From: Clostridia bacterium
Lineage (GTDB): Bacteria; Bacillota_A; Clostridia; Oscillospirales; CAG-272
Direction: 5' to 3'
DNA length: 32,422 nucleotides
Assembly (NCBI GenBank): GCA_017454075.1
Contig: JAFTDQ010000077.1
Span: 1 to 32,422, forward strand
This document shows positions 1,048 to 23,089 of this stretch, piece after piece. The notes beneath the pieces are model-generated. The model had not been told where the DNA came from and searched no databases. It worked only from the letters and a program-made list of their open reading frames with translations. Position 1 is the first letter of the stretch; every line of letters starts with the position of its first letter. The position numbers and the translations under genes were made by a program.

Positions 1048-2082
1048 ATGTCAAAGCAGGTCACGATAAAGGACGTCGCGCTCGACGCGCACGTTTCCAT
1101 AACAACGGCGTCCTTCGCGCTCAACAACATCAAGGGCAGGGTTAGCCAGAAGACGAGGGAAAGGGTCCTTGAGAGCGCGAGAAAACTGAAATACACCGTA
1201 AACAACAACGCGAGGTCTCTCAGGACCAGCAATTCAAAAACCGTCATGTTCGCTTTCTCGGGGGAATATCTCGAGGAACGGTACCTGAGTCACATGGCGT
1301 CCCTTACAAGATGCATAGAGTTCGCCGATCTCGTGGGATACGGCATTCTTCTCGAGCTCGTCGACAGCAGATGCACGCTTGACGAACTTGTTCAGAAATT
1401 TATGAGGATATGGGAGTCCGGAAGGGTCGACGGAATAATTTTTCAGTGCTTCTTCGAGGATCACCGCGACGACGAGCTCTATCGCAGGCTTTATAAATCG
1501 GGTGTGAATCTCGTTAACATTTCCCGAATAGGCGACGCGAGCGACTATCCCTGCGTATATCTCGAAGAGTTCCAGATGGTAAGGGATCAGGTCAGATATG
1601 CGGTTCAGAAGAAATACGACAAGCTTTACTACGTATGCCGCAGACACCGCACCTACGGCATAAGGGAACGCGGATTCCTTGACGAGATCGCCGGGGAAAA
1701 AGTGCGCGGTCAGATCCTGAATTATCAGACCCACGACTGCGGCGAAGAAGAGCTCTGGAAGACTGTCGGACCTGTGATAAACGACGGAAAAAACGAACGC
1801 AGGGCGTTTATATGCTGGAACGACACCGACGCGATGACTCTCATAAGCGTCCTGAAAAATCACGGTGTCTCCGTCCCCGGGGACGTCGGGGTCATGGGAT
1901 TTGACAATATCCCTCTGACGGAATACGTCGCGCCTCGGCTCACGACGGTTTCCCATCCGTTCTCGATGATGGCAGGGAAGGCCTTTGATATGCTCATTAA
2001 GATCATCAGAGGCGAGGAACTGACAAGGGCGGAGACGCATATAGCCGTGGATTCGGAAATAATCGAAAGAGATTCAATGTAA
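1048..2082 (+). CDS. LacI/GalR-family transcriptional regulator of the glycan locus
   Basis: The protein is 344 aa, the usual LacI length. The N-terminal helix-turn-helix is clear (TIKDVALDAHVSITTASFAL, about residues 5-24, with a hinge near NNNARSLRTSNSKTV). It is followed by a periplasmic-binding-protein-like effector domain with the hallmark C-terminal stretch around VPGDVGVMGFDNIPLTEYV and PRLTTVSHPF. It lies in front of the GH65 operon and carries a degenerate copy of the locus palindrome in its own promoter. Perfect or near-perfect palindromes of the CG-centred LacI type occur at four other promoters here, so it very probably represses (or less likely activates) all of them and releases them on binding a sugar or sugar phosphate derived from the glycan. 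The inducer is unknown. ATG at 1048 is chosen because the HTH begins right after it. Confidence 0.93.
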   Translation: MSKQVTIKDVALDAHVSITTASFALNNIKGRVSQKTRERVLESARKLKYTVNNNARSLRTSNSKTVMFAFSGEYLEERYLSHMASLTRCIEFADLVGYGILLELVDSRCTLDELVQKFMRIWESGRVDGIIFQCFFEDHRDDELYRRLYKSGVNLVNISRIGDASDYPCVYLEEFQMVRDQVRYAVQKKYDKLYYVCRRHRTYGIRERGFLDEIAGEKVRGQILNYQTHDCGEEELWKTVGPVINDGKNERRAFICWNDTDAMTLISVLKNHGVSVPGDVGVMGFDNIPLTEYVAPRLTTVSHPFSMMAGKAFDMLIKIIRGEELTRAETHIAVDSEIIERDSM

Positions 2083-2117
2083 ATATTCCGGGAACGCAGA
2101 AAACCGCGGTGCGGCGC

Positions 2118-2146
2118 TTGACAAACCGCGGAGGGTATGTTATAAT
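2118..2146 (+). promoter_or_regulatory. Promoter of the GH65 operon
   Basis: A consensus TTGACA (2118-2123) and TATAAT (2141-2146) have a 17-bp spacer. The expected start near 2153 coincides with the first base of the operator core. Confidence 0.85.
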
Positions 2147-2149
2147 TGT

Positions 2150-2171
2150 TTTTGCAAAACGTTTTGCAAAA
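2150..2171. promoter_or_regulatory. LacI-family operator 3, perfect 22-bp palindrome
   Basis: The core TGCAAAACGTTTTGCA (2153-2168) is a perfect inverted repeat, and the symmetry extends three bases further on each side. It immediately follows the -10 box, the classic roadblock position. It is the best operator in the window and sits before the longest operon. Confidence 0.88.
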
Positions 2172-2190: not shown

Positions 2191-4308
2191 ATGAACACGG
2201 TAATCAGGGATTCGGGTTTTTCAGCCGAAAATATCGACTGGTTCGGGAACAGATATCTGACCGGCAACGGCCGGTTCGGGATCAGAGGAACTCCCGAGGA
2301 GTTCACGGCGGAAAACCGCCCGGCGATAAATCTTTCCGGTGTGTACGACAGGGTCCCCGGCAAATGGAGGGAATCTGTCAACGCGCCGAACGCGGTTTAT
2401 ACTGACGTCATATCCGGCGAAGGCCGGATCGCCCTCCCCGAGAAGGAGCCGGTCTTTCACGAGCAGTCGCTCGATCTGTCGGCGGCGATTTTCGGCCGAA
2501 GGACGACCTGGGACACCTGTGGCGTAAAAATATCGGTCAAAAGCGAGCGCTTCGCGTCGCTTGACAAGCCCGACGAGATATGGCAGAGATACCGCTTGAC
2601 GTCGGACGGAAAGATTTCTCTTTCGGTTCGGACGGGTATCGATCCCGCAGTATGGGACATAAACGGTCCTCATTTCGTAAAAACCATCCTGACCTCGGAC
2701 GGAAAAACGGCCTCGGCCGTCGGAATAACCGCCGAGAAGGGATTTGAGGTATCGGCGGAATCTGTGATCACGGCGTGCTCGCACGGATACCGCGTATGCG
2801 AACAGGACGGGAAAATATTGTTTATTTTTGATATCCTCCTGTCCCCCGGGGAAGAGTTCTTCTTCGAAAAATGCTCGAAGATAAAGGCCCCGGGCGACGT
2901 TTCGATGCCGTTTAAAGGGGGATACGACGAAGCAAAGCGCAGGAATACCCTCGCCTGGAAAAAGATATGGGACGTTTCGGAGGTCGCGATCGAAGGGGAT
3001 CCCGAAGCGGAGCTCGCCCTGAACTATTCGATATATCATCTGAACTGCATCGCCCCGAGATACAGCGAAAGCATGTCCATCCCGGCGCGCGGACTGTCCG
3101 GTCAGGTATATAAGGGCGCAATTTTCTGGGACACGGAAATGTTCATGTTCGACTATTTCCTGTTCACCGATCCCGCCGTCGCGAGGACCTTCGTGAGATA
3201 CAGGATCGACACGCTGCCGGGGGCGAGACGCAAGGCTGAGGAATACGGATACGACGGCGCGTTCTACGCCTGGGAGAGCCATGAGGGCGGGATAGACGCC
3301 TGCACAGACTATAACATAACGGACGTGTTCACAGGACGCCCGACAAGGACGTATTTCAGGGACAAACAGGTCCACGTCTCCTCGGCAATGGTTTACGCGC
3401 TCGACAGATACGTTACCGTCACGGGCGACCGCACCGTCCTTGACGAGGGCGGATACGATCTCATACGCGACTGTGCGGAGTTTTATTATTCGCTCCTCCT
3501 TAAAAGGGTATGCGGGGAGGAGTACGAAATACGCGACGTCGTCGGCCCGGACGAATATCACGAGCGTGTGGACAACAACGCGTATACAAACCGTATGGCA
3601 AAGTTCACCTTCGACGCCGCCGTGAAATATCTCACGGAAAAGGGCGGAGAGGACGAAACACTTATAGAAAAATTCGCCGACGCTTCGGAAAAAATAAAAA
3701 TACACACGCCGGACGAAAAAACCGGAGTGATCGAACAGTTTGACGGATATTTCGGGCTTGAGGACGTTTCGGTCGACGAGGTGCGTTCGCGGCTGCTCGA
3801 TCCGCGGGAATACTGGGGCGGGGCAAACGGAGTTGCCGCCCATACTCAGGTGAACAAGCAGGCGGACACGGTCGCCATGCTCGGGATGTTCCCCGGCGAT
3901 TATTCAACCGACGTGATGCGGAAAAACTGGGAATACTATGAAAAGAGAACGGAGCACGGCTCGTCTCTCAGCGCCTGTATGTTCGCGCTGCTCGCCTGTT
4001 ATACCGGAGACCCGGATTACGCATATCCGCTTTTCATGAAATCTGCGCAGCAGGATTATCTTAAAACGTCGAAACTCTGGCTCGGTCTGATTTTCATCGG
4101 CGGAACGCATCCGGCGGCCTCGGGTGGCGCCTGGATGACGATGCTGCGGGGATTTGCGGGAATATACGTAAAGGACGGCGTGCCGGTCAGCCGCGGTCCC
4201 GCGCTTCCGTCAGGTTGGAAAAAACTGTCCTTCAGACTGAAATGCAGAGGAAGGCTCTGGACTGTCACTGCGACGGACCGGGGAACGGAGATAAAGGAAC
4301 TTGATTAA
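2191..4308 (+). CDS. GH65 family disaccharide phosphorylase
   Basis: This 705-aa cytosolic enzyme (no signal peptide) belongs to glycoside hydrolase family 65, whose bacterial members phosphorolyse alpha-glucosides such as maltose, kojibiose, nigerose or trehalose to beta-glucose 1-phosphate, with inversion. Visible family motifs are IFWDTEMFMFDYF (about 310), GPDEYHERVDNNAYTN (about 452-468, containing the Glu expected as general acid) and KQADTVAML (about 555). The next gene encodes beta-phosphoglucomutase, the enzyme that uses the product, which supports phosphorylase rather than hydrolase activity. ATG 2191 is chosen because GGAGG (2181-2185) precedes it correctly; an upstream TTG at 2146 would translate through the operator. 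Acceptor specificity cannot be read from the sequence. It overlaps the following gene by 8 bp. Confidence 0.92.
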   Translation: MNTVIRDSGFSAENIDWFGNRYLTGNGRFGIRGTPEEFTAENRPAINLSGVYDRVPGKWRESVNAPNAVYTDVISGEGRIALPEKEPVFHEQSLDLSAAIFGRRTTWDTCGVKISVKSERFASLDKPDEIWQRYRLTSDGKISLSVRTGIDPAVWDINGPHFVKTILTSDGKTASAVGITAEKGFEVSAESVITACSHGYRVCEQDGKILFIFDILLSPGEEFFFEKCSKIKAPGDVSMPFKGGYDEAKRRNTLAWKKIWDVSEVAIEGDPEAELALNYSIYHLNCIAPRYSESMSIPARGLSGQVYKGAIFWDTEMFMFDYFLFTDPAVARTFVRYRIDTLPGARRKAEEYGYDGAFYAWESHEGGIDACTDYNITDVFTGRPTRTYFRDKQVHVSSAMVYALDRYVTVTGDRTVLDEGGYDLIRDCAEFYYSLLLKRVCGEEYEIRDVVGPDEYHERVDNNAYTNRMAKFTFDAAVKYLTEKGGEDETLIEKFADASEKIKIHTPDEKTGVIEQFDGYFGLEDVSVDEVRSRLLDPREYWGGANGVAAHTQVNKQADTVAMLGMFPGDYSTDVMRKNWEYYEKRTEHGSSLSACMFALLACYTGDPDYAYPLFMKSAQQDYLKTSKLWLGLIFIGGTHPAASGGAWMTMLRGFAGIYVKDGVPVSRGPALPSGWKKLSFRLKCRGRLWTVTATDRGTEIKELD

Positions 4309-4969
4309 AAAAGTCAGAGCCGTCATTTTCGATCTCGACGGAGTTATCGTAAAAACGGACGAATACCACTATCTCGCGTGGAAAAAACTCGCCGGCGAGC
4401 TCGGTATAGAAGATTTCAGCGAGGAGGACGGAGTGCGTCAGCGCGGCGTGAGCCGCATGGCGTCGCTTGAGATACTTCTCGAAAAGAGCGAAAAAAACTT
4501 TTCCGAAGAGGAAAAGATCATTCTCGCCGAAAGAAAAAACAGATATTACGCGGAGATGCTCGGGAACCTCGATTCTTCGGCGATACTGCCGGGGATAATC
4601 GAAACGCTCGATTATCTCGATTCGGGACATATTAAAAAAGCGGTCGGCTCGGTGAGCAAAAACACAGGCACGATCCTTTTAAAAACCGGGCTTGCAAATC
4701 GTTTTGACGTCGTGGTCGACGGAACGACGCCGCTCCCCTCAAAGCCCGATCCGGCGATATTTCTGCTCGCTGCGGAGAAGCTCGGCGTACCCCCGTCGCG
4801 CTGCGCGGTGGCGGAGGATTCGCACGCCGGGATCGAGGCGGCGAAGCGCGGGGGAATGACGTCGGTCGCGGTCGGTCCGGCCTGCAATTCTCCGCTTGCC
4901 GATTACGGAACGCGGGAAACCGCCGGTCTGCCCGGGATCATAAGAAAAATAACCGGTAAAAAAACATGA
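4301..4969 (+). CDS. pgmB: Beta-phosphoglucomutase (HAD superfamily)
   Basis: This 222-aa protein converts beta-glucose 1-phosphate to glucose 6-phosphate through a bisphosphate intermediate. HAD motif I is FDLDGVIVKTDEYH (nucleophile Asp11, acid/base Asp13). The cap-domain RGVSR loop is near residue 48, motif II is GSVSKNTG, the motif III lysine is in KPDPAIF, and the metal-binding AEDSHAGIEAA is motif IV. At the position of the conserved cap lysine (Lys45 in the Lactococcus enzyme) there is an arginine. The TTG start at 4301 overlaps the end of the GH65 gene and places the FDLDG motif at the family's usual distance from the N terminus. GH65 plus beta-PGM is a recurrent pathway pair. Confidence 0.92.
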   Translation: MIKKVRAVIFDLDGVIVKTDEYHYLAWKKLAGELGIEDFSEEDGVRQRGVSRMASLEILLEKSEKNFSEEEKIILAERKNRYYAEMLGNLDSSAILPGIIETLDYLDSGHIKKAVGSVSKNTGTILLKTGLANRFDVVVDGTTPLPSKPDPAIFLLAAEKLGVPPSRCAVAEDSHAGIEAAKRGGMTSVAVGPACNSPLADYGTRETAGLPGIIRKITGKKT

Positions 4970-7900
4970 AAAAAAACGTTATCACAAAATTTCCCGAGCC
5001 GCGGTATAACGCTCGGTTTTCGGAGCTTTTCGGCGGAGACGGAGGGCATGGTCTTCCTGATCTGAGCGGAGCGCCTTCGGGAGAATCCGTAATAACCTGC
5101 GGGACCGACATGACCTTCCCGGGGGAGACTCTCTCCCTTACCGGGGAGGAGCTCGACGGAGCGGACGCCGCCCTCTGGACCGAGGGATCGTTCAGGATAC
5201 TGTGCCCCGTAAGGTCAGACAAAACAAAAATGCAGCTCATAATTCCCGAAGGGTCGGAAAGATCCGTCACCGCCGTGTGGCCGGTAAAGAGGGAATCGGC
5301 GGGCGAGCCGTATCTCATCAACCTCCCGACCGTATGGTGGGCGGACAGAGAGAACGTCGACTCAAACGGCGCGGCGCGCCGCGTAAGACTGTTCGGGAAG
5401 AATTTTTCGCTCGGCGGGCTTCCGCCGACCGTCGCCGTGATACTTGACGACGGCAGGACCGAGACGGCGACGGTCGTCTCGTGGAGCCCCTATGACGTCA
5501 CGGCTGAAATCAGAAGCTGTCTTTCGGGCTGCCGCTCCCTTTCCGTCGCCGTACACAACGGAACTGGCGGGAAATACGGCTGGAGCGAATGCTTCGGGCT
5601 CGGAGTATGCGAAAAAACGACAGCTGATACCGACGGGCTCCCGGTAATCACGCTCGCGCCGCCTTCGGCGGACGGCAACGACTGCCCCGCGGTTTCGGCG
5701 GCAATACGAGAGGCGGAAAAGCTCGGCGGAGCCGCCGTCGTCTTCGATCAGGGAGAATACCGTTTCCCGCAGACCGTAAAAATAACCGGAAGCTTTCCGC
5801 GCGGGCTGATTTTAAAAGGTCTCGGCGCCGGCAAATACGATTTTGCTTCCCGTCTGCGCCCGTCGGAGCGAAATCACCGGGGGCTGAGCGGCAGGTACAC
5901 CTCCCTGAGGTTTTCTGACGTCAGCGCAGCGCCGAACGTGATATCCGTCGAGACCGACAACGTCGCGATAGAGGACATGACCGTCTTCGGCGCCGACGGA
6001 CACGTCGGCGGATATACTATGAAATTCGGCTATACCGTCGTTATAAGCGGAAACAACGCGCGGATAAAAAACGTCCGGATGATTAAAGCCGATCTCAGGG
6101 ATCTTAACACCGATCCTTCGGCGAGCCTTCTCTGCTCGAATCACCTGTTCATAGATTCGGGATGCCGGGACATAACCGTCACGGGATGCGAATTCCATAC
6201 CAAGGCGTGCGCGATCTGGATAAACTTCTATGACGGGGACAGATACTGTCAGCACGTTCTCTTCGAAGACCGGCGGCAGGTAAGGAACGTCCTTATCGAA
6301 AACTGCGGTTTTTACGGTTATACCTACCCGTACGTCCATCCGGACGGAAGAAAGCCGACGTATGACGAGGGTGAGATATCGCGCGGTATTACCGCGATGA
6401 ACGTCGACGGCATGATCGTCGAAAACTGCCGGTTCAGAGGGGTAGATCAGAAAAACGACGTTGTGCTCACCCGGAGCATGTATATACCCATAACGGCAAA
6501 TCACATGTTCATCGCTCACAACTCGATGGTCAACGTCGGTTCCACCCCCGGTACGGGCTTTGACGGCAACACGGGCGAGCAGATCCTTCTGCACGGCGGC
6601 TTCCATCTCGGAGGTGTTTACAACGTCAGGCGATCCGAGGGCCGGCGGCTCACCGTAAGGCGCGACAACATAGCGCTCACCGATGAAAACGGCAGACAGC
6701 TGACCTCAGAGGACACCGTCACAAACGCCGGAAGCCGGATACTCGAGGGTCTGAAAAAAGGCAAACGCGGCATGGCGTACGTCGCCGGCGGCCGGGGAGT
6801 CGGGCAGATAAGACAGATCGACGGATACGAGGAGACTGAGGACGAGTACGTATTCACGATCCACGAGCCGTGGAGGGTCGAACCTGACGAGACAAGCATA
6901 ATCGTCGAAACGGCGCCGTTCCGCGAAAACATAATTTACGGCAACACTATAATGAAAGAAGAGCCGACGATGTCTCACGGCTGCAAGTCCGGGGGCGTGC
7001 TGGTATTCTTCGACACTTACAGCAATATAATAGCCGGAAACGATTTCCGCAACCTCGCTTTCGGAGTGGCGCTGAACTCGTCTTTCAAATGCCCGGTCAC
7101 CTGGTGCACCGTCAGGGACAACCGATTTACGGGAATAAGAGAAGCGTACAAGGACGCCATGCAGGGGGGCGATTCGACAAGAAACTCCACGTGCTTCTGC
7201 GAGTCCGTCGTCAGCAACGCGGGCGAGACCGCCGGCTGGGACGACTATCACGTGTGGTACACCGTCGGGAACGTGTTCCGCGGAAACATCTGCCGCGACT
7301 GCGACACCGCCGCCGAGGTCGCGACAAACAGATGGCACAATCTGAGAAATCACGGACTCGAAAAGTATTACGGGCACGAAAAGGGCAACTGCATGACCGT
7401 AATAGAGAGAAACGGGTTCAGCGGCGTTTCGCAGGGGATACTCGTCGGTAACCCCGCATACTGGACTTATATCAGAAACAACGATTTTTCGTTCAGGTTC
7501 AAAGACGGTTTTTCGTGTTCGGAGCTGAGCTACGATCACGACCCGCGCAATTTCAGACTGATAGCCATACGAAACAACTCGGTCGAATCGGATTGCTGTC
7601 ACACTCTTAACAGATACGCGGACGGGATGAGCGATTCGTTCAGCGCAAAGGAATACGAGATACGCTCAAACCGCGAAAACGTCGGCGAGATAGTCGATTA
7701 TATCGGAAGGCATTACTCCGAGCGGATACGGCTTGACGATATCGCCGCCGCATGTCACCTCAGCAAGTATTACATCTCCCACACCTTCACGAGAAACATG
7801 AACCGATCGATCGGAGTGTATATAAACGATCTGAGATTCCAGAAAGCGAACGATCTGCTGGCGAACACGGACATAAGCATCGTTAAGATCGCCGAGACGG

Positions 7901-8010
7901 TCGGATTCGGAGACCCGACGAATTTCAGCCGGGGTTTCAGAAAAAAGTTCGGGATGACCCCGACCGAGTACAGAGATAAAAACCGCGTGAAGGAGAAAAA
8001 AGGGAAATGA
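4966..8010 (+). CDS. TIG/right-handed beta-helix protein fused to a C-terminal AraC-type DNA-binding domain
   Basis: The protein is 1014 aa without a signal peptide, so it is cytosolic. Residues about 45-220 are beta-sandwich (IPT/TIG-like) repeats containing NGTGGKYGWSE. Residues about 225-895 form a pectate-lyase-type parallel beta-helix (LGGAAVVFDQGEYRFPQTV, then many short strands of the type RNVLIENCGFYG and NIIAGNDF). Residues about 905-1005 are a complete AraC/XylS HTH pair: LDDIAAACHLSKYYISHTF, then IVKIAETVGFGDPTNFSRGF and KKFGMTPTEYR. It is a long paralogue of the lipoprotein at 10280-13090, which lacks the HTH. The reading frame is uninterrupted, so the fusion is not a frameshift artefact. 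AraC proteins usually have cupin sensors; here the sensor or enzyme would be the beta-helix. The start overlaps pgmB (ATGA). Regulator function is inferred; catalytic activity of the helix is untested. Confidence 0.9.
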   Translation: MKKNVITKFPEPRYNARFSELFGGDGGHGLPDLSGAPSGESVITCGTDMTFPGETLSLTGEELDGADAALWTEGSFRILCPVRSDKTKMQLIIPEGSERSVTAVWPVKRESAGEPYLINLPTVWWADRENVDSNGAARRVRLFGKNFSLGGLPPTVAVILDDGRTETATVVSWSPYDVTAEIRSCLSGCRSLSVAVHNGTGGKYGWSECFGLGVCEKTTADTDGLPVITLAPPSADGNDCPAVSAAIREAEKLGGAAVVFDQGEYRFPQTVKITGSFPRGLILKGLGAGKYDFASRLRPSERNHRGLSGRYTSLRFSDVSAAPNVISVETDNVAIEDMTVFGADGHVGGYTMKFGYTVVISGNNARIKNVRMIKADLRDLNTDPSASLLCSNHLFIDSGCRDITVTGCEFHTKACAIWINFYDGDRYCQHVLFEDRRQVRNVLIENCGFYGYTYPYVHPDGRKPTYDEGEISRGITAMNVDGMIVENCRFRGVDQKNDVVLTRSMYIPITANHMFIAHNSMVNVGSTPGTGFDGNTGEQILLHGGFHLGGVYNVRRSEGRRLTVRRDNIALTDENGRQLTSEDTVTNAGSRILEGLKKGKRGMAYVAGGRGVGQIRQIDGYEETEDEYVFTIHEPWRVEPDETSIIVETAPFRENIIYGNTIMKEEPTMSHGCKSGGVLVFFDTYSNIIAGNDFRNLAFGVALNSSFKCPVTWCTVRDNRFTGIREAYKDAMQGGDSTRNSTCFCESVVSNAGETAGWDDYHVWYTVGNVFRGNICRDCDTAAEVATNRWHNLRNHGLEKYYGHEKGNCMTVIERNGFSGVSQGILVGNPAYWTYIRNNDFSFRFKDGFSCSELSYDHDPRNFRLIAIRNNSVESDCCHTLNRYADGMSDSFSAKEYEIRSNRENVGEIVDYIGRHYSERIRLDDIAAACHLSKYYISHTFTRNMNRSIGVYINDLRFQKANDLLANTDISIVKIAETVGFGDPTNFSRGFRKKFGMTPTEYRDKNRVKEKKGK

Positions 8011-8801
8011 GCTGCGCTGAGAGGATACCCGTCCCCCTTCCGGACGGCGGTGAGATTTCATTCCTGTTCGAGAGACCGGACGTTCCCGGCAGGGTCCCCT
8101 GCGTCCTGTTTATCCACGGCGGCGGCTGGGATTCCTGCTCGGCGGATTATTATCTCCGCCATATGGAAATTATATGCCGCCGCGGAGCGGCGGCGGCTTC
8201 TGCCGAATACCGGCTTAAAACACCGGATACGCACGTTTCGCGCCTCGTTTACGACTGCGGCGAGATCATAAGATATATGAGAAAAAACGCCGAAGGGCTC
8301 GGGATTCTTGAAAACATGATCTGCGTCGCCGGAGAGTCCGCGGGGGGACATCTCGCGCTCTGTCTCTCCTCCCCGCTTATCGTTCCGGACGACGGGGTCC
8401 GCCCCGATCTCACGCTCAACCTGAACGGGGTCGTTGACATGACAGGCGTTTTCAGCGACAGATTTTTCAGCGAAGAGGAACAGGGGAGCTGCACCGACCC
8501 CGGGCGGTGGCTCGATATTTACGGAGAAGCGGAGAACTGGTCTCCGGCGTTCAGGGTCTCGGCAGGAAATTCCCCGACTGTGCATTTTCACGGTCTGCTC
8601 GACCGCGTCGTCAGACCGGGGGAGACCGTGAGGTATCACAGGGAACTGCTCTCTCACGGAGTCCCGAGCGAGCTTCATCTGCTCCCGGGAATGAATCACG
8701 CCTTCATCCTCTTCGGTTACGACAATCCGGACGGCGTGGTATATTCAATTCTTGATATGATTTGCGGCACGCTGCTGAAAAGCGGCTGGCTGAAGCAATG
8801 A
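8007..8801 (+). CDS. Alpha/beta-hydrolase esterase (BD-FAE/hormone-sensitive-lipase-like)
   Basis: This 264-aa cytosolic protein has the alpha/beta-hydrolase fold of carbohydrate or aryl esterases. The oxyanion-hole motif HGGGW is at about 37-41 and the nucleophile elbow GESAGG (Ser) is at about 109-114. The Asp of HFHGLLDRVV (about 200) and the His of GMNHAF (about 231) complete the triad. The likely role is removal of acetyl or other acyl groups from imported oligosaccharides, inferred from the surrounding glycosidases. Its ATG overlaps the stop of the AraC-fusion gene (ATGA), indicating translational coupling. The exact ester substrate is unknown. Confidence 0.85.
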   Translation: MSCAERIPVPLPDGGEISFLFERPDVPGRVPCVLFIHGGGWDSCSADYYLRHMEIICRRGAAAASAEYRLKTPDTHVSRLVYDCGEIIRYMRKNAEGLGILENMICVAGESAGGHLALCLSSPLIVPDDGVRPDLTLNLNGVVDMTGVFSDRFFSEEEQGSCTDPGRWLDIYGEAENWSPAFRVSAGNSPTVHFHGLLDRVVRPGETVRYHRELLSHGVPSELHLLPGMNHAFILFGYDNPDGVVYSILDMICGTLLKSGWLKQ

Positions 8802-8830: not shown

Positions 8831-10279
8831 ATGAAAAAAGCATCGAAAATAACGGCGGCTCTTCTCGCCGTCGTCATGATCCTCGGCGTGCTCTTCGCCT
8901 GCTCGACGCCCGGCGACAAGCCGCAGGGATCCGGAACGGTAAAACCCGGCCCGGCGGTTTCCGGGGACGAAACGACGAACGGAGGAACGCCTTCCGATGA
9001 GAAGTACGTTCTGCCGAACGAGGATCTCGGGGGCACCGAGATAAAAATCTTCTCTATAATGGGTCCGGTCACCACCTGGCTCACCTTCCCCTTCTTCACG
9101 ACGGAGGATTCGTCCACGAAGATCAGCGCCGCGGTCTATAACCGCAACGCTCTCATCGAAGAACGGCTGAAATGTCAGATCACCGAAGAAAACGCCGACA
9201 ACACGAACGGCGAACTGTGGAACACACTCCTTGCCGGTGACGAAGATGAATATCAGGTCGGCGTAGACTATTCCTGGGCGTCGCTTTCGAGAGCGACCGA
9301 AAACTATCTCGTTGACTTCGAGAACATCACTCCGGTCCATCTTGACAAACCGTGGTGGGATTCCAACCTCAACGAGGCGTTCAGCCTGAACGGACACGTG
9401 TTCATCACCTCGGGAAGCGCGATGGTAAGCAGCTGGGACGAGATCTTCGTGACGTATTTCAACTCGAAGGCAGCGGCCGATATGAACCTCAACCTTTACG
9501 AAGAGGTCAAAAACGGCGGCTGGACCTTTGAGAGAATGATGCAGATCATTCCTCTCGCCGACACCGCCATCGACGATCCCGGAGCCGAAAACGATCATTA
9601 CGGCTTCGCGACCCAGGCGTTTTACGCCGTTCCGTCCTTTATGGGGACGAACAACGTCACATACGCCGTAAAGAACAGCAGCGGGAAGCTCGAGAACTTC
9701 TCGACGAGCGAAAAGTTCATAAACACCGTCATCCGCATTTCGGAGAACCTCAAGAAATCCGACGCGATCTATTACGGCGACGCCGAGATAGATCAGATGT
9801 TCATGAACGGCGAGACCTTCTTCCTCCACAACTGCATAGGCGTCATGACGAACATGAGAGACTTTGAGGATTACGGCGTTCTTCCCATGCCGAAATGGGA
9901 CGAGGACGGCGAGTACCACAGTTATTCGGGCGCCCAGTACCTCCTTTTCGTGCCGTACACCAACAAGATCCTTGAAAAGACCGGTATAGTTCTCGAGGCC
10001 ATGATGGGAATCAGCGAATATACCCTTAAGGACGTTTATATCGAGGAAATGCTCGGACAGATCTATTCGAGAACTCCCGAGGCCTCCGAGATGCTGTACG
10101 ATTACATCCTTCCGAACACGCTTTACGATATGGGCGGCAGACAGGGGCTTTCCTTCAACAACCTTATCCCGCTCGTTCAGGCGGTCCCGCTCGGGATGAC
10201 GGATATCAAGTCGCTCGTCGATCCGGTGGCAGACACCATTCAGCTGACCATCGATAACGTCAACGATTTTAACGGATAA
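8831..10279 (+). CDS. ABC transporter substrate-binding lipoprotein, sugar-binding type
   Basis: The protein is 482 aa with a lipoprotein signal peptide ending at a lipobox (LGVLFAC, Cys about 24) and a Ser/Thr/Gly-rich linker. A periplasmic-binding-protein-like fold follows, with typical family 1 features: GTEIKIFS near the start of the mature domain, repeated cross-lobe segments, NGGWTFERMMQI and GVLPMPKWDEDGEYHSYSG. It should capture an oligosaccharide at the outer face of the membrane. No permease or ATPase gene is in the window, so it is an orphan here and must either use a transporter encoded elsewhere or act as a sensor or accessory binder. AAAGGAA precedes the ATG. The next gene starts one base after its stop, so the pair is cotranscribed. 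Confidence 0.85.
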   Translation: MKKASKITAALLAVVMILGVLFACSTPGDKPQGSGTVKPGPAVSGDETTNGGTPSDEKYVLPNEDLGGTEIKIFSIMGPVTTWLTFPFFTTEDSSTKISAAVYNRNALIEERLKCQITEENADNTNGELWNTLLAGDEDEYQVGVDYSWASLSRATENYLVDFENITPVHLDKPWWDSNLNEAFSLNGHVFITSGSAMVSSWDEIFVTYFNSKAAADMNLNLYEEVKNGGWTFERMMQIIPLADTAIDDPGAENDHYGFATQAFYAVPSFMGTNNVTYAVKNSSGKLENFSTSEKFINTVIRISENLKKSDAIYYGDAEIDQMFMNGETFFLHNCIGVMTNMRDFEDYGVLPMPKWDEDGEYHSYSGAQYLLFVPYTNKILEKTGIVLEAMMGISEYTLKDVYIEEMLGQIYSRTPEASEMLYDYILPNTLYDMGGRQGLSFNNLIPLVQAVPLGMTDIKSLVDPVADTIQLTIDNVNDFNG

Positions 10280-13090
10280 ATGAAAGCAAAGGTTATTGTC
10301 GCTTTTCTCCTGACCGCGCTGATGATACTCAGTTCATGCGGTACGGCTGACGGCCCGGGAAAAACGAGCGATACGGCGGCGCCGCAAAACGGCGGCACAG
10401 ACAGTATGACAGACTTTACGACACAGGAGACCGAGCCGGTCTCGGTCGAGGTGGAAGTTCCCGCCGACGCGACGAATCTTCCGGCCTTTACGGTGAGCCC
10501 GGCGGCTGAGAAACTCTCCGCTCCGGGCGGCGAGGCGCTTCCGGAAATGACCGCCGGGGCGGCCGAGGGCGCGCCCATGATATCCGAGCTCAGCGAAATG
10601 ACCTTTCCGGACGAGACTCTCGCCGCAGCGGGTCACAATCTCGAAAAAGCCGGCGTCATAATCTGGACCGAAGGGTCTCTCAGGGCGGTTATCCCGCTGC
10701 GTTCGGACAATTCAAAGCTCGAGGTCACGATACCCTCTGAAATGACAAGATCGACGACCCTCGTCTGGCCGTACAACGACAGCGGAGTCGGGGCGCCCGT
10801 CAGGATTAACGCCCCGGACGTATACTGGGCCGACCCCGGCGCGCTGTACTCGGGAGTCTCGGGACAGGAGATACGCTTCTTCGGCAGCGGTTTTAAGATA
10901 GAGGGCAGGACGCCCTCGGTCGCTGCAGTATATGAAAACGGGGAAGCCGAGGAGCTCGAGGTCCTCGACGCCGACGAGTATCAGATAAGGGCAAAACTGA
11001 AATCTCCCGTTTCCGGCGGGAGCGTAACCTTCTTCTGCCATAACGGCACGGGAGGAAAATACGGCTGGAGCGAGCCCTTTACGGTCGGAACGGCCGAATA
11101 TACCATCGTCGGCGAGCAGGAACTCATGCATTTCCGCGTTGACGATTACGGCGCGGTCGCCGGGGACGGAAAGAGCGATCTCTCAGCCATAAACTCGGCG
11201 GTCTCCGCGGCGGCAAAAGAGGGCGGCGGCGTCATCGAGTTCGGAGCAGGCGAATACAATCTCGCGAACACCCTCCAGATACACGGAAAGTGCCCGAAGG
11301 GGCTCTATATAAAGGGCGCGGGCGAGGGGAACTACGACATGAAATCGGGTCTCGGCCACGATGAATACGATCACGTCGGCCTTTCCGGTAAATACACTCT
11401 TATAAAATTCGCGGATCCCGCGAAGGTCGGTTCGATCTTCATCTACGTCGGAAGCGACAACGTATTCGTCTCCGATATGACGGTTATCGGCGGCGACAAC
11501 GGCGATCACAACAGCAAGAGCGTCTTTATTCACGGGGAGAACATATCCCTCGAAAACGTACGGATGATAAAGACCGATCTGCGCGATTTTTCGGCAAATG
11601 AAATATCGGTCGGCTCGAATCTCGAAATTGACAACTATTCCCGCAATATCACGGTGAAGAACTGCGAATTTCATCAGCAGGGAAGCGCCGTCAATATCGG
11701 CAATATAGAAGGCATCTGGCCCTGGGGATATTTCGACAGCGAGAGAACCATACGCAACGTGCGCATCTCCGGATGCGACGTATACGGCTACGCCGGTCCG
11801 TACAAGTCGCCCGACGGGCGTTCCGCCGGGGATCTCGGAGAGATCTCGCGCGGACTTATAGGATTCAATCTCCAGGGGCTTGTATTTGAAAACAATACGG
11901 TCCAGGGATACGACAAGGAACACTGCAAGCTCCTCGTCAGAAGCATTTACGTAAACGCTTCGAGCGAGAAAATGTATATAGCGGGCAACACGTTCCGTAA
12001 CGTCGGCAATATCCCCGAATCCGGATTCGATCTCAATACGGGCGAACAGATCCTTATACACGGGAACGACTATACCGGAGGGATCTTCAACGTGAAATCC
12101 GACGGGGGAGAAAAGATCACCGTGCGGACGGACAATATATCCGACAAGAACGGGAGCCCGTACTCAAAGTCTGACAACACCGGAAGCCGGATCTTCAGCG
12201 GACTTGAAAAGGGAGACCGCGGCTACCTTTACGTATATGGCGGAAAGGGCGTCGGTCAGTCCCGCAGCGTGACGGGATACCGCGAGAGCGGCGACACGAT
12301 AGAGTTTACCCTTAACAGACCCTTTACGGTACCGCTCGATGAGACGAGCGTCGTCGACCTCATATCCTATTCCGGTTATAACATAATCAGGGGCAACAGC
12401 ATCGGAAACGATCACGTCGTCCTTCACGAGGGGCTCAAGACCGGCGGCGTTCTGCTCTTCTTCCAGGGCGGGTACAATATTATCGCCGGCAACGATTTCC
12501 ACAATCTGACCTTCGGCGTCGCGATAAACGCGAGATTCAAGGGCCCGACTGTCTGGAACACCGTCCGCGACAATAATTTCTCGGGAATGACCGAACTGAG
12601 ACGAGACGCCGCGCAGGGTGGAGACTCGACTTACAACGCGACGTTCTTCTGCGTATCCGTCGTTAAAAGTTCTCCCGAGGGATGGGACGACTACAACGCG
12701 TGGTACGCGGTCGGAAACGTGTTCCGCAACAACGTGTGCCGTGACGGCGATTATGCCGCGGAGCTCACCACGAACCGCTGGAACAGAGGCGGCAGCGAGT
12801 GGGACAAATATCACGGCGACGAAAAGGGCGCCGCGATGTCGATAATCGAAAACAACAGATTCGAGCAGGTAAAGACCGGCGTGCTCATCGGCAACCCGGA
12901 TTACTGGTCGGTAATGAGAAACAACGTGTTCGATTATTCGGGAAAACCCGGCTACAAAAAGCAGGCGTACACTTTCGAGCAGGGACCGAAATATTTCTGG
13001 TTCCTGTGCATCGACGGCAACACGGTAAAATCAGACAGCAACGAGAGCCTTAACGAGGGCTGGAACCAAAGCACCGAAATAACTGAATAA
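10280..13090 (+). CDS. TIG/right-handed beta-helix lipoprotein (Pectate_lyase_3-like)
   Basis: The protein is 936 aa with a lipoprotein signal (MKAKVIVAFLLTALMILSSC, lipid Cys20) and an acidic/Thr-rich linker. TIG-like beta-sandwich segments at about 105-275 include NGTGGKYGWSE. A long parallel beta-helix at about 280-925 opens with VDDYGAVAGDGKSDLSAINS, the usual start of Pectate_lyase_3-type domains. It aligns along its length with the AraC-fused protein at 4966-8010 (shared MKTD/MIKADLRD, GEISRG, NTGEQIL, GGDST, WDDY and GNP.YW motifs) and stops where the HTH begins in that paralogue. It probably binds or cleaves the glycan at the cell surface. The catalytic residues and the reaction are unknown. 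It directly abuts the binding-protein gene. Confidence 0.87.
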   Translation: MKAKVIVAFLLTALMILSSCGTADGPGKTSDTAAPQNGGTDSMTDFTTQETEPVSVEVEVPADATNLPAFTVSPAAEKLSAPGGEALPEMTAGAAEGAPMISELSEMTFPDETLAAAGHNLEKAGVIIWTEGSLRAVIPLRSDNSKLEVTIPSEMTRSTTLVWPYNDSGVGAPVRINAPDVYWADPGALYSGVSGQEIRFFGSGFKIEGRTPSVAAVYENGEAEELEVLDADEYQIRAKLKSPVSGGSVTFFCHNGTGGKYGWSEPFTVGTAEYTIVGEQELMHFRVDDYGAVAGDGKSDLSAINSAVSAAAKEGGGVIEFGAGEYNLANTLQIHGKCPKGLYIKGAGEGNYDMKSGLGHDEYDHVGLSGKYTLIKFADPAKVGSIFIYVGSDNVFVSDMTVIGGDNGDHNSKSVFIHGENISLENVRMIKTDLRDFSANEISVGSNLEIDNYSRNITVKNCEFHQQGSAVNIGNIEGIWPWGYFDSERTIRNVRISGCDVYGYAGPYKSPDGRSAGDLGEISRGLIGFNLQGLVFENNTVQGYDKEHCKLLVRSIYVNASSEKMYIAGNTFRNVGNIPESGFDLNTGEQILIHGNDYTGGIFNVKSDGGEKITVRTDNISDKNGSPYSKSDNTGSRIFSGLEKGDRGYLYVYGGKGVGQSRSVTGYRESGDTIEFTLNRPFTVPLDETSVVDLISYSGYNIIRGNSIGNDHVVLHEGLKTGGVLLFFQGGYNIIAGNDFHNLTFGVAINARFKGPTVWNTVRDNNFSGMTELRRDAAQGGDSTYNATFFCVSVVKSSPEGWDDYNAWYAVGNVFRNNVCRDGDYAAELTTNRWNRGGSEWDKYHGDEKGAAMSIIENNRFEQVKTGVLIGNPDYWSVMRNNVFDYSGKPGYKKQAYTFEQGPKYFWFLCIDGNTVKSDSNESLNEGWNQSTEITE

Positions 13091-15005: not shown

Positions 15006-17468
15006 TCAGAGCGAAACGTTTTTTATGAGAACGGGAACGCAGGGCGAGAGATTCACCCCGACGTTTTCTCCTCCGACGTATAACGGATACGGCTTTTTCG
15101 TTCCCTTGAAATCAAGCAGAGTCGCCGACGGGACGCCCTCCGCAGCGTGGAACTCGACAGTTTTCTCCCTGTCGCTGAAAAGAATAAACGAGTTTTTTTC
15201 TCCGCACGGGATCACGGCGAGCCCGTCTTTCACGACGTCCATGCCGTTTACTCTTACAGTATAGTTCCCGGTCGCGAAATCGACGCTCACGAAGCTGTCT
15301 TCGCCGTAATTTATCAGGGCGCCGGTCCCGTTCCACTCGCAACAGCTTACCTCCCTGTCGGCGAGGAACTGCATCGGCATGGCGTGCAGAAACAGGCTTT
15401 TTTTCACTCCGTCGCCGAGCTTTGCTCCGAGACAGTCAAATCCGCTGACGGCGCCGACGGCGACGGCTCTGACTCTGCCCGAGTCGTCGAGCGAGCCCAT
15501 ACTGTAGCGTATCTTTCCGTGATATACGCAGGTCGTGAGAGGAATGAGCTTCTCCCCCGGGAAGAGCACCGCGGAAAAATCGTATTTTGTGTGAAGCGCG
15601 TATTCAAGCTTGCCGACAAAGGGTTCGGAGACGTTCTCGCTCGTCACGTCAACGCCGTATTTCGCGAACTCGTCGATCACGGATTTTTTGTATCCGATAT
15701 TTTCAAGGGCGGAGCTCACGTATTTTCGCGAATAGTCGTATCTCCGTATCTCGGCGCTGAGCACGTCGAGATGATAGCTTGTTTCGATTCTGAAGGTCCC
15801 GAGCGTTTTTTTCACTCTTTTCGCCATCTCTCCGCTTTCACAGTACGCCTTCGGCGAAAGTATGCGGGACATTCCTCCCGCCCAGAGCCAGCCGGTACGC
15901 TTTTCTCCGCGCCGGTCGGTCGCGATGAGCGACGGGTCGAGCCCTTCGAGATTATAGGCGTCGTCGAAATTGTTGTGGAAGGAAAGCACCGCGTTGTGTT
16001 TTTTCGCAAAATCGAGGCATTCGAGCCATTCGTCAAAAGTGCCGAGCGCAGGGGAAAAGCCGTAAAGGTGAGGGTTCGGATACTCCGTATCGTGCCCTCT
16101 TCTTTGCCATCCCACGAGATAGACGACCTGTTTCATCCCGTTGCTGAGATTGTAAACGCGTTCTATTATCGACTTCACTTCGGTAAAATCCACCGTGTTT
16201 GAGTACGTGATCGGACGGTTTTCGTCGTATTCGAAACTCTTGTCGGCGCTGATTTTGTATATCAGCGTATTTTCGTAGAGCTTTCCCATCCCGTCGGGAA
16301 GGCGGGCTCTCAGGCGTTCGGCGAAGGGGAACCATCCCCCGCCGGGGAGCCGGGTCACCCGTATCGGGACGCGCGGGATTTTTACGGGTTCGGCGTTTTC
16401 GGAGAAAGAAGGGAGCGTCAGGGTGATCCCGCAGCCGATGAAACCGCGCTTTTCTCCGCGGCAGAGTTCGACGGACTGATATAGAACGCCGTCCATGTCG
16501 TCGGCGGTCACGGAAATCCCAGTATCTCCGTCCGAGCAGGCGACGGCGCAGTTCGAATCATATCTGAAGCATGCGCCGAGCGTGAGCGAATCCTTCACGC
16601 GAACGGATCTCCCTCCGCCGAAGAAATTGTAAAGCTCTCCGTTTTCCCCGACAGAGACGAGATGCGGGATGTAAACGCCGCAGAGTATGTATCCGCTCCT
16701 CTCCACAACGTTGTCGACGCTGATAAGCGTCTCCCGGTCGTCAGGACAGTAAAAGACAAGGTCGGCCGAACAGAAATCACAGGAGAAATGATAAACGAGG
16801 GAGCTTCCCATGCGGGCGGCCGGCGATATTCTGAGCTTTCCGGAAGACATGGCGACGGAAAACGCCGTGTGCGCCTCCGCGTCGGATATGCGTACGGAGA
16901 TTCCTCCCGGACTTACCGGTGAGGAGGGCTGATCGGCGCACAGAGTGAGACAGCCCGCCGGTACGGTCGCCGGGGCACGGCCTTCCGGCTCCGGGAAAAG
17001 CGGGTTGATCTCCGTCCGGACCGGACGGCGCTGCTCGACGAGCATCCTGTGTCCCCAGCCCCAGCCGATATCTATCTTCCCGACGTCCTCGGAAAAGACC
17101 GTGCGTCCGTTTCTTCCGGTAAACGGAAGGGTCTGCCCGTTTTCTCCTATAAGCGAGATGACGACCCGGAAAGGACCGCACCAGACGTTTTCAGGAACGT
17201 TAAAACGGCCGGTGGACGATATCGCAGTTCCGTATATCCAGGCGTCGGCGCGTGGATACGGAGTCCACGAAGTCCGGTATCCGTCCGGCGCGTTTTCGGG
17301 ATATCTCTGGGATTTGTCGTAAACGAAGTCGGCGGCGATTTTTACGCCGGGCGCGCCGGGCGCGCCGGAGTTCTGCCAGACCGTCGTTATAAAGAGAGCC
17401 TCGCCGCCCTCTACGTAATTTGCCGTGAGCTCAATGGAGCTCAAGATCGGACTGAACCCGTCCGTCAT
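15006..17468 (-). CDS. GH101/GH129-like (DUF5696-type) TIM-barrel glycoside hydrolase
   Basis: This 820-aa cytosolic protein has N-terminal beta-sandwich regions (about 1-400), a TIM-barrel core and a C-terminal beta domain. The core begins QVVYLVGWQRRGHDTEYPN (about 448-466) and continues with AVLSFHNNFDDAY. SYHLDVLSAEIRRYD at about 560-575 holds a candidate nucleophile Asp, and GVDVTSENVSEPF at about 610 a candidate acid/base Glu. This pattern resembles endo-alpha-N-acetylgalactosaminidase relatives, which act on alpha-linked sugars. Family assignment is from motif memory and is moderate; specificity is unknown. I take the ATG at 17468, with GAGGTGG upstream, rather than the TTG one codon earlier. 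It overlaps the 3' end of the preceding gene by 38 bp, so the two are cotranscribed. Confidence 0.75.
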   Translation of the reverse strand: MTDGFSPILSSIELTANYVEGGEALFITTVWQNSGAPGAPGVKIAADFVYDKSQRYPENAPDGYRTSWTPYPRADAWIYGTAISSTGRFNVPENVWCGPFRVVISLIGENGQTLPFTGRNGRTVFSEDVGKIDIGWGWGHRMLVEQRRPVRTEINPLFPEPEGRAPATVPAGCLTLCADQPSSPVSPGGISVRISDAEAHTAFSVAMSSGKLRISPAARMGSSLVYHFSCDFCSADLVFYCPDDRETLISVDNVVERSGYILCGVYIPHLVSVGENGELYNFFGGGRSVRVKDSLTLGACFRYDSNCAVACSDGDTGISVTADDMDGVLYQSVELCRGEKRGFIGCGITLTLPSFSENAEPVKIPRVPIRVTRLPGGGWFPFAERLRARLPDGMGKLYENTLIYKISADKSFEYDENRPITYSNTVDFTEVKSIIERVYNLSNGMKQVVYLVGWQRRGHDTEYPNPHLYGFSPALGTFDEWLECLDFAKKHNAVLSFHNNFDDAYNLEGLDPSLIATDRRGEKRTGWLWAGGMSRILSPKAYCESGEMAKRVKKTLGTFRIETSYHLDVLSAEIRRYDYSRKYVSSALENIGYKKSVIDEFAKYGVDVTSENVSEPFVGKLEYALHTKYDFSAVLFPGEKLIPLTTCVYHGKIRYSMGSLDDSGRVRAVAVGAVSGFDCLGAKLGDGVKKSLFLHAMPMQFLADREVSCCEWNGTGALINYGEDSFVSVDFATGNYTVRVNGMDVVKDGLAVIPCGEKNSFILFSDREKTVEFHAAEGVPSATLLDFKGTKKPYPLYVGGENVGVNLSPCVPVLIKNVSL

Positions 17469-19908
17469 CAAAATACCACCTCGCGTTCGTGTTTCTCTGC
17501 CCGTACCGGACGATCCGTTTTTCCGGGACGTCGTCGTCGATTATGTTCTGCCGGCCGTCGTCGATGATATCGACGGCGTTGTGCCTGTACGTGTTGTTTC
17601 TTAAATAATTGCCCGTCGACGAATATCTCACGTGTATCCCCGCGTCGTAGCCGGCTATGAGATTGTTCTCGAAAAGGGTGTAATTCCCGACGGACTGTAT
17701 GCCGCTTCCTATCCTGACCGGCGTCCAGGTCGTCTGGTTCTTGACGTAATCCGAGTCGGCTCCGCCGATGAACGAGCTCCAGCGGACAATGTTGCCGATC
17801 TGATTCTGATAATCCTGATCCCTGTCGTCAAGCAGCGACCAGCTTTCGTTTGACCAAAGGCACAGCCCCATGCCGCTGTATCTTCCGTCACAGTGCGAAA
17901 AGCGGTTGAAGGCGACTATTCCCATGTCGTTAATCGAGCCGTCGTCTTTTTTGCTTATCATCATGGCGTACATGCTTATTCCGGACGTCATGAGCATGGA
18001 ATGCCCGACCACTATGTTTTCAATGCCCGAGCCGTAGACAAACTGGCTGTTACCGCTCCCCATTCCCGCGAAATTGAGGGCCCAGATCGTGTGGTTCACC
18101 GCGGTTACGAGATTAAAAACGGTGTTTTCATCGGGCATAACGCGCCAGGGTTCGGCAGTATATACGGTGTCTCCTTCAACGCGGTCGACGACGCGGTACT
18201 GACCGAGTCCGCGTCCCTCGACTATCATGAGGAACCAGCGGTGTTCGGAAAGATTTTCCCCGACGGTCCCCCTCTGAAGGAGACGCTTTTTTGAAATGTC
18301 AAAATCCGTCCGGATATAGTTTTCGCCGACCCCGGCGGCCTTTCCTACCCATGCGCTCTGGCCGTATTCCGACATATACTCCTCGTTTGCGTTCGTCGTG
18401 TTCGCGACCCCGGTGCTTCTGTTTTCGAAAATATAGCAGTCGAAGGTCCCCTGCTGACTTATCAGCGTTCGGCGGCCGTTTACAAAGCTGTTTTCGGAAA
18501 TGACTGCCCCGTAAAGACCGGACGCGTAAACGCAGTCTCCGCTCTGCCTCGGGCTCACCTCAAACGTGTTTCCGATCATCTTCATCCCGACGCACTGAGA
18601 AGGGAGTATGAAGACCGGGAAAGACGCCGTCACACGGCATTTGTAGAACGTGAGATTTTTGGTTTTCCCGGTGGTGAGCACTCCGTGATATGATACGTCA
18701 AAAACGTTTCCGTGAAGATAGAGCGCGGAATTGATGCCGTTTTCTATCTCCGTGCGGTTGAAAAACACGTTCTCCGATGGCCGGTCGTCGGTCGTGCCTA
18801 CGAGCGCGAGGATAACGGCGCCGTGACCGCCCTCGAGCTTCAGGTCCTCGACCCCCGCCTCCGTCTCGATCCAGAGGAGCGGAGTGTTGTTGTCCCTGTC
18901 CATATATGGCTTCCAGTCAAGTGACCAGTTTTTGCCGTCCGACGCGCGTTTTGTATATGCGACGGGGGGCATTCCGGACGGCTCGAGCATACTGCCTTCG
19001 CGTACCGTCAGCGTTGTCGCGCCCATTCCCGCACCCTTGAGTATGACCCCCGGGAGGAGATGCACCGTCCTCGTCACCCCGAACCGTCCCGGAGGAAGGA
19101 GGACGAAGCCGCCGCCCGCCGCCGAAATATCGCTTACAGCGTTCTCTATCTCGCGGGTCGCGTCAGAAAAACCGTCCCCGAGCTCCTGAGATATTTTTCT
19201 GACGGGTATCCCGGTAAGGTCATATCTGACGTCCTGACGGCATTCCATGTTCCATCTCATCGAGTATTCGGCGACAAGGGAACGCCGGGGAATGACAGTG
19301 AGGCGGCGCTTTTCGGACCATCCCCACGGGCCGCCCGTGCCGTTTGTCAGCGATATCTCGTATTCTCCCGGAGGAACGTCCCCCGGAAGAAGGTGATCGC
19401 TTCTGTGATCGTTCTGCCCGGGCATCGACTGCTGCATATCCTGACTGACTCCCCAGGTCATGCGGTACAGTCTTCCGTCCGAGAGATTTTTCATTGCGCA
19501 TACCGTGTTTGTGAAATAGCGCTGATCCTCTCCGTAATAGTTCTGCCCGAAGAGGGAAATTTTGTCTCCCGGGACGGCGGTATCGAGCGAACTGCTCCAT
19601 ATTTCGGGGCGGTTCAGCGCAGCGCAATCCTCGCCGTCACGCCCGGAGACCCATATGAGACAGCATCCGAAGGGAACCGTGTACGGGACGCCGGCAAAAA
19701 CTACCTGATCCCCGGCGTGCCGGGTCTGAAGCTTTATCGCGCCTTCCGGACGCTTGGGAAACGGAACGGGAGAGAACGCGTCCGACAGATCGACGGTCTC
19801 GTCGGGATAATAAAGATATACCTCGCATTCAGAGAGGTTTTCACCGAAAATCCGGGCGGTCTCGCCGGGGTACGCGGGGGAGACGCGGCTTATCACTGGT
19901 CTGCTCAT
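17431..19908 (-). CDS. TIG/right-handed beta-helix protein, cytosolic paralogue
   Basis: The protein is 825 aa with no signal peptide. Two IPT/TIG-like repeats lie at about 1-220 (ISRVSPAYPGETARIFGENL, later GDKISLFGQNYYG and NGTGGPWGWSE). A Pectate_lyase_3-type beta-helix follows at about 240-800 (ISAAGGGFVLLPPGRFGVTR, LPGVILKGAGMGATTL, then short strands such as NVFFNRTEIENG and NYTLFENNLIAGYDAG). It shares the NGTGG.(Y/W)GWSE signature and domain order with the proteins at 4966 and 10280 but is more distant. It may be a lyase, glycosidase or epimerase on imported oligosaccharide; the reaction is unknown. AGGTGA precedes the ATG at 19908. It is first in the - operon, behind a perfect operator. 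Confidence 0.85.
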   Translation of the reverse strand: MSRPVISRVSPAYPGETARIFGENLSECEVYLYYPDETVDLSDAFSPVPFPKRPEGAIKLQTRHAGDQVVFAGVPYTVPFGCCLIWVSGRDGEDCAALNRPEIWSSSLDTAVPGDKISLFGQNYYGEDQRYFTNTVCAMKNLSDGRLYRMTWGVSQDMQQSMPGQNDHRSDHLLPGDVPPGEYEISLTNGTGGPWGWSEKRRLTVIPRRSLVAEYSMRWNMECRQDVRYDLTGIPVRKISQELGDGFSDATREIENAVSDISAAGGGFVLLPPGRFGVTRTVHLLPGVILKGAGMGATTLTVREGSMLEPSGMPPVAYTKRASDGKNWSLDWKPYMDRDNNTPLLWIETEAGVEDLKLEGGHGAVILALVGTTDDRPSENVFFNRTEIENGINSALYLHGNVFDVSYHGVLTTGKTKNLTFYKCRVTASFPVFILPSQCVGMKMIGNTFEVSPRQSGDCVYASGLYGAVISENSFVNGRRTLISQQGTFDCYIFENRSTGVANTTNANEEYMSEYGQSAWVGKAAGVGENYIRTDFDISKKRLLQRGTVGENLSEHRWFLMIVEGRGLGQYRVVDRVEGDTVYTAEPWRVMPDENTVFNLVTAVNHTIWALNFAGMGSGNSQFVYGSGIENIVVGHSMLMTSGISMYAMMISKKDDGSINDMGIVAFNRFSHCDGRYSGMGLCLWSNESWSLLDDRDQDYQNQIGNIVRWSSFIGGADSDYVKNQTTWTPVRIGSGIQSVGNYTLFENNLIAGYDAGIHVRYSSTGNYLRNNTYRHNAVDIIDDGRQNIIDDDVPEKRIVRYGQRNTNARWYFDDGRVQSDLELH

Positions 19909-23078: not shown

Positions 23079-23089
23079 AAAACGCTGCA

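Follow-up and report, generated by a model that had tools for sequence, protein, structure and literature searches.

Regulators of the AraC/XylS family share a conserved DNA-binding domain of about 100 residues that contains two helix–turn–helix (HTH) motifs. In the cupin-type members (PF02311) this double HTH is C-terminal, and in the regulators AryK, Rsp and Btr (NF047455, NF033869 and NF049932) an AraC HTH is likewise joined to a large domain, which is glycosidase-like or binding-protein-like rather than a β-helix. AraC-type domains can also act alone, as do MarA and SoxS. Enzyme–regulator fusions and trigger enzymes such as PutA, Ada and MocR are known as well; to our knowledge, none of them has a β-helix. 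Here we describe a protein of 1014 residues, encoded on contig JAFTDQ010000077.1 of a Clostridia bacterium (32,422 nucleotides; this whole stretch is referred to below as the window), in which a complete AraC double HTH forms the tail of a right-handed parallel β-helix. The β-helix would be a new type of sensor for the AraC family.

The C-terminal double HTH of the fusion protein is like that of the cupin regulators, to whose HTHs it is related, but in place of a cupin, of which Pfam found none in the protein, there is a β-helix of 650 residues together with β-sandwich modules. Among NCBIfam models, AryK matches its HTH part best; the scores of 84.4 bits for AryK (cut-off 850) and 53.2 for Rsp (cut-off 400) come from this part only, and in the AryK, Rsp and Btr models 270–500 residues follow the HTH, whereas here it is the C-terminal tail. 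As in PutA, Ada and MocR, the fold of an enzyme and a domain for DNA binding are united in one protein. The fold of residues 224–876 is that of the mannuronan C5-epimerases AlgE4 and AlgE6 and of families GH110, GH91 and PL6, a likeness of fold, with 9–18% identity in structural alignments. The sensor of LacI-family proteins is related to exported sugar-binding proteins, and the same idea recurs here in a cytosolic candidate sensor with an exported relative in its pathway (the paralogue at 10280–13090), although the LacI fold and HTH are unrelated to those of the fusion. No AraC–β-helix protein was found in the literature among the matches listed, judged by titles and abstract openings.

Domain architecture

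The protein is encoded by an uninterrupted frame of 1014 codons on the forward strand (4966–8010), which joins β-sandwich modules, β-helix, linker and double HTH (Table 1). The initial annotation, made from the letters of the window, had described one frame joining a pectate-lyase-type right-handed β-helix and a full AraC HTH pair. This frame is seen in the sequence and recurs in relatives, and both of its halves are borne out. The structure model, together with matches to this fold, gives residues 224–876 the parallel β-helix with many coils that characterizes pectate-lyase-like proteins, and the HTH_18 profile matches the C terminus at residues 926–1004, with scores of 67–74 bits across the window protein and two relatives, P0003 and P0011. 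The TIG-like domains of the same annotation hold in part: sandwich strands are present in the model, whereas Pfam recognizes a TIG domain only in a distant relative (P0021) and not in the window protein. Sequence analysis of the N-terminus found no export signal, in agreement with the missing signal peptide noted earlier, and supports a cytosolic form. Inside the model, confidence is lowest at residues 890–897, within the linker (predicted local distance difference test, pLDDT, below 50).

Recurrence of the fusion in relatives

A collinear copy of the same length and 99% identity, P0002, is present in the protein database with seven member sequences; all nine of its substitutions relative to the window protein fall before residue 898, and none in 898–1014. 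The HTH is also carried by P0003 (67% identity, 1007 residues) and by P0011 (64% identity, 687 residues), which starts at the equivalent of residue 338. The joint between β-helix and HTH lies at the same position in the window protein, P0003 and P0011; the linker is equally long in the window protein and P0003 and gains one residue in P0011. Each of these three HTHs scores above the Pfam cut-off. Among the 17 close relatives P0002–P0018 (at least 43% identity), three are fused and the other 14 lack the HTH. When the C-terminal part of P0011 served as query in a second search, three of 23 rows, P0011 included, showed a β-helix with an AraC domain, and no additional fused protein came up. In the searches of the protein database with β-helix queries, scoring was confined to the candidates with the most words in common (7993 and 7998), so that the count of fused proteins is a lower bound.

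The missing HTH in those 14 relatives would suit an assembly artefact or a chimaera of two genes, to which we assign a next to negligible probability. With a collinear copy at 99% identity, and with the joint shared by relatives that are 67% and 64% identical, the fusion is no assembly error; codon use is moreover continuous along the gene and, within the HTH part, agrees best with this frame. An artefact was rejected on these grounds. Homologues that are always split into two genes, an outcome that the initial annotation had itself raised against its reading, are not what was found, given the three fused proteins among the 17.

A split locus and the source of the HTH domain

Separate genes for the two halves are found in L001, a locus of an uncultured Clostridia bacterium (CALWTY010000015.1, genome G001). 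Its genes follow one another in the order LacI, GH65, β-phosphoglucomutase-like protein, SASA esterase, β-helix protein, AraC, esterase, solute-binding-like lipoprotein and β-helix lipoprotein. Full-length counterparts of all but AraC are present in the window, at 44–64% identity, that of the SASA esterase sitting apart at 21732–23078. The L001 β-helix protein (P0031) has no HTH at its end. Overlapping with its gene is that of the AraC regulator (P0032; 314 residues as annotated, 298 from an inner ATG at 10699), in which Pfam finds a cupin (AraC_binding, PF02311, E = 6.4e-7) and HTH_18 (E = 1.9e-20).

The HTH of P0032 matches window positions 7687–8007 at 9e-24. Its cupin has no credible match in the window (tblastn; best E 0.034, at unrelated places), nor does the window hold a separate AraC gene of the P0032 type. 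As an HTH of this type forms the tail of the fusion and the window has neither the cupin nor the separate gene, the β-helix stands where the cupin stood. The earlier proposal that a β-helix takes the sensor place of an AraC regulator is thereby upheld as to position, the HTH belonging to a separate cupin–AraC gene in L001 and standing without one in the window; oligosaccharide sensing, DNA binding and catalysis are its predicted functions.

The P0032 HTH is 56% identical to that of P0011, 42% to that of the window protein and 39% to that of P0003. For the P0011 HTH, P0032 scores 131 bits, against 68.6 bits (36% identity) for the highest scorer among 20 other AraC HTHs in G001; for the window HTH the margin is small (87.4 bits against 80.5, at 35% identity, for the best of the 20). 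The case for kinship is strong through P0011 and the gene order, and weaker through the window HTH alone. Most simply, the fused HTH would derive from the HTH of the neighbouring regulator, the cupin having been lost. A tree of the β-helix (23 rows, with a warning of unusual letter make-up in the L001 row) places the window protein, P0003 and P0011 in one clade (support 100/98) with L001 as its sister (88/92), and sets nine lipoproteins apart (100/99).

Operon and regulator sites

The fusion gene overlaps both of its neighbours by four bases and hence belongs to an operon with the GH65, HAD and esterase genes (Table 1). Going by their gene families, these neighbours would serve to process in the cytosol an oligosaccharide that is imported and probably esterified. 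Located just beyond the −10 element of the operon promoter is the perfect palindrome GCAAAACGTTTTGC. Allowing up to three mismatches, the window has seven such sites, whereas shuffled sequences average 1.6 and none of 100 shuffles reaches seven. Five of the sites lie upstream of genes, at 132 (gene at 203), 1023 (LacI gene), 2154, and 19933 and 20064 (a divergent pair); the remaining two, at 4694 and 15011, are inside genes. L001 has three palindrome sites, of which GCAAAACGATTTGC at 3731 occupies the equivalent place at the GH65 promoter and the other two are inside genes. GCAAAACGTTTTGC would most simply be the operator of the LacI-family protein encoded at 1048–2082. Within this one locus, the LacI-type palindromes give a readable LacI regulon.

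Table 1. Coordinates of the fusion protein, its parts and the operon in the window.
Feature	Position	Strand	Remarks
Fusion protein, 1014 residues	4966..8010	+	β-sandwich modules, β-helix, linker and AraC double HTH in one frame
Ig/TIG-like β-sandwich modules, residues about 41–215	5086..5610	+	strands in structure model
Right-handed parallel β-helix, residues 224–876	5635..7593	+	structure model and matches to this fold
Linker, residues 877–897	7594..7656	+	partly pLDDT <50
AraC-type DNA-binding domain, two HTH motifs, residues 898–1012	7657..8001	+	HTH_18 at 926–1004
LacI-family regulator	1048..2082	+	63% identical to L001 counterpart
Candidate AraC-type site, 9-bp direct repeat AAACCGCGG	2101..2131	+	copies at 2101 and 2123, 22 bp apart; second touches −35
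Operon promoter, sigma-70 type, TTGACA-17-TATAAT	2118..2146	+	12/12 consensus letters
Palindrome GCAAAACGTTTTGC, LacI-type operator (candidate)	2154..2167	+	seven bases downstream of promoter (−10)
GH65 phosphorylase-type protein	2191..4308	+	63% to L001; annotated open reading frame begins at TTG 2146
HAD hydrolase, probably β-phosphoglucomutase-like	4301..4969	+	stop overlaps fusion start
BD-FAE type esterase	8007..8801	+	start overlaps fusion stop (ATGA)
Lipoprotein by N-terminus, probably solute-binding	8831..10279	+	no Pfam match; 63% to L001 counterpart
Exported lipoprotein paralogue of β-helix part, without HTH	10280..13090	+	43% over 871 columns

The hydrophobic N-terminus of the exported paralogue was measured on its near-copy P0017. 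A cytosolic β-helix protein is paired with such an exported lipoprotein paralogue in both loci (window 10280–13090, L001 14083–16905), and source sequences of equal size for P0006 and P0036 (12829) and for P0008 and P0039 (12020) hint at the same pairing elsewhere.

Encoded on the reverse strand of the locus are an 821-residue protein (15006–17471) with a match to GH101 endo-alpha-N-acetylgalactosaminidase just below the cut-off (E 2.6e-5) and a β-helix protein (17431–19908) distantly related to the fusion (21% identity over 361 columns). A plain Beta_helix protein follows on the forward strand (20102–21730), and the stretch 21732–28715 holds SASA esterase, GH94, GDSL lipase and GH116 proteins. 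With GH65 and GH94, two families rich in sugar phosphorylases are present in one locus.

Proposed mechanism and alternatives

We propose, with a probability of roughly 0.55, that a cytosolic, glycan-active β-helix protein became an autogenous one-component regulator of the AraC family that senses an imported oligosaccharide. The ancestor would have resembled L001, with a β-helix gene overlapping a downstream cupin–AraC gene. Loss of the stretch between the two, cupin included, would have joined the HTH to the C-terminus of the β-helix by a linker of about 20 residues. The protein is encoded inside the operon that is its probable target. Imported oligosaccharide would sit in the groove of the β-helix, the state of which would be relayed to the HTH pair and activate the promoter at 2118–2146; the LacI repressor, via the palindromes, would provide a second input, and the β-helix would probably keep its ancestral job on the sugar. 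If the HTH answers to sugar, the β-helix must relay the signal, as it is the large domain attached to the HTH; the predicted step from groove to HTH crosses the linker, where the inner part of the model is least certain. Ligand, DNA target, activation and catalysis are likewise predictions of this proposal, as are the direction and route of the fusion.

The state of the β-helix was judged from columns invariant in 19 unfused relatives (ten cytosolic proteins and nine lipoproteins). The window protein retains 147 of 152 such columns, P0003 145 of 152 and P0011, without its N-terminus, 96 of the 102 present; in a leave-one-out control, the ten cytosolic unfused rows retain 94–100% (lowest P0012, 152/161). 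End branches of the fused rows (0.29–0.38) lie inside the range of the ten unfused cytosolic rows (0.22–0.52), and window protein and P0003 are 74% identical in the β-helix (481/648) and 60% in the sandwich modules (105/175). Because the family-invariant columns are kept as in unfused relatives, the β-helix is, by this measure, constrained about as they are and not decayed to a mere spacer. The domain is probably still working, and the 147 retained columns are compatible with a trigger enzyme. What links the β-helix family to enzymes is the fold and short sequence matches near the cap, those to GH110, GH91, PL6 and alginate epimerase lying mainly in a short stretch there (profile 171–304). The fold alone is insufficient for assignment to a CAZy family.

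These data bear on two readings of the β-helix. One makes the enzyme itself the transcription factor, cytosolic turnover of the oligosaccharide gating the AraC tail so that flux would set the expression of its own operon; we regard this as a tentative possibility. On this reading, the β-helix protein of unfused relatives (for example, L001) should work on the AraC regulator as a partner in its own right. The other, which overlaps with the proposed mechanism and which we consider unlikely, has a β-helix without catalysis acting purely as a sensor. It would fit a domain standing where a cupin stood, with an exported 43% paralogue in the locus that could catalyse, with four residues near the helix cap missing in the window protein and P0003 (after window residue 232), and with Y515F and T566R, which the three fused proteins share at columns that do not vary among the 19 unfused; the retention of invariant columns much as in unfused relatives, and a branch that is not long, argue against it. 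Y515F and T566R (window 6508–6510 and 6661–6663) are in their own right candidate marks of the regulator form. Doubtful, too, is a ligand-independent, MarA-like tail, in which the β-helix would serve purely as enzyme or binding protein and operon expression would follow the amount of protein, not its sugar-bound state. MarA and SoxS chains do match the fusion HTH, and tight coupling is not evident, since the linker is of low confidence in the model (at 890–897) and poorly conserved (32% identity between window and P0003, 8/25). In the unfused L001 form, however, the related HTH is accompanied by a cupin, a sensor type, so that ligand control probably preceded the fusion. That the HTH is a remnant that has lost DNA binding, as its faster evolution relative to the β-helix might suggest, is improbable: its HTH_18 score, within the 67–74 bits of the fused proteins, is like that of the free AraC of L001 (73.4), the stretch KYY.SH.F, presumably the first recognition helix, is conserved across the six fused and free forms aligned, and the substitutions that separate the window protein from P0002 spare the domain. 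An internal start at Met888, directly before the HTH, would yield an additional free AraC domain of 127 residues, and thus two products from the frame; with Val at this position in P0003 and Phe in P0011, it was rejected as not conserved and is highly improbable.

Several observations weigh against the proposed regulator and its origin. The operon is already served by a LacI regulator, and the HTH diverges faster than the β-helix (56% identity between window and P0003, 61/109). The AAACCGCGG repeat at the operon promoter, a candidate AraC-type site whose AraC-like geometry (22 bp, the spacing of AraC half-sites being about 21 bp) speaks for the proposal, was found post hoc against a background of direct repeats at 20–23 bp in 17 of 4622 tiled windows, and the L001 promoters tested contain no AraC-like direct repeat. 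L001 is the sole split locus with gene context, and by identity the P0032 HTH is equally close to L026 of its own genome and to P0003 (39% each); bit scores separate the two (72.8 for L026, 91.7 for P0003). In a tree of the HTH (40 rows, 115 columns, bootstrap not settled), the fused HTHs group with that of L001 and those of two other cupin–AraC proteins, P0043 and P0044 (support only 83/77), and within this group the P0011 HTH pairs with the unfused L001 HTH (99/86), away from the window protein and P0003. A single clade of fused HTHs is neither rejected nor shown by the approximately unbiased (AU) test (p 0.389), and a union of the fused HTHs with that of L001 is not rejected either (AU p 0.349). 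One fusion event would be the simpler account. Two fusions, an exchange of the HTH or a later split in L001 are possible alternatives, and the HTH tree hints that one and the same pair of adjacent β-helix and AraC genes may have fused on more than one occasion.

Distribution

At the thresholds used, the β-helix family was found only in G001, the genome of L001, which is the centre of each genome draw and is counted in it: one of 295 genomes in the family draw, one of nine for the genus, one of 394 for the order, one of 391 for the class and one of 398 for the phylum, draws that may overlap. A scan of genome contigs with six exact peptide patterns gave 13 pattern matches that led to one locus, again L001. 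A viral origin was rejected, as the pattern scan of viral contigs with alignment A1 gave nine pattern matches, none of them a relative; plasmids yielded one weak match only, to a cadherin-like protein at 25%. A search for AraC partner genes of the relatives through source sequences of matching size, a weak test, gave no pair. AraC proteins with a β-helix in the sensor place are apparently rare.

Implications

With this protein, the sensor repertoire of the AraC family would gain a large carbohydrate-enzyme fold, and the split locus L001 shows the probable source of its two halves. If the β-helix is indeed both enzyme and sensor, the protein would be a natural sugar-responsive switch. The split system of L001 and the fused system of the window, taken side by side, make it testable how a metabolic protein becomes the input domain of a regulator.

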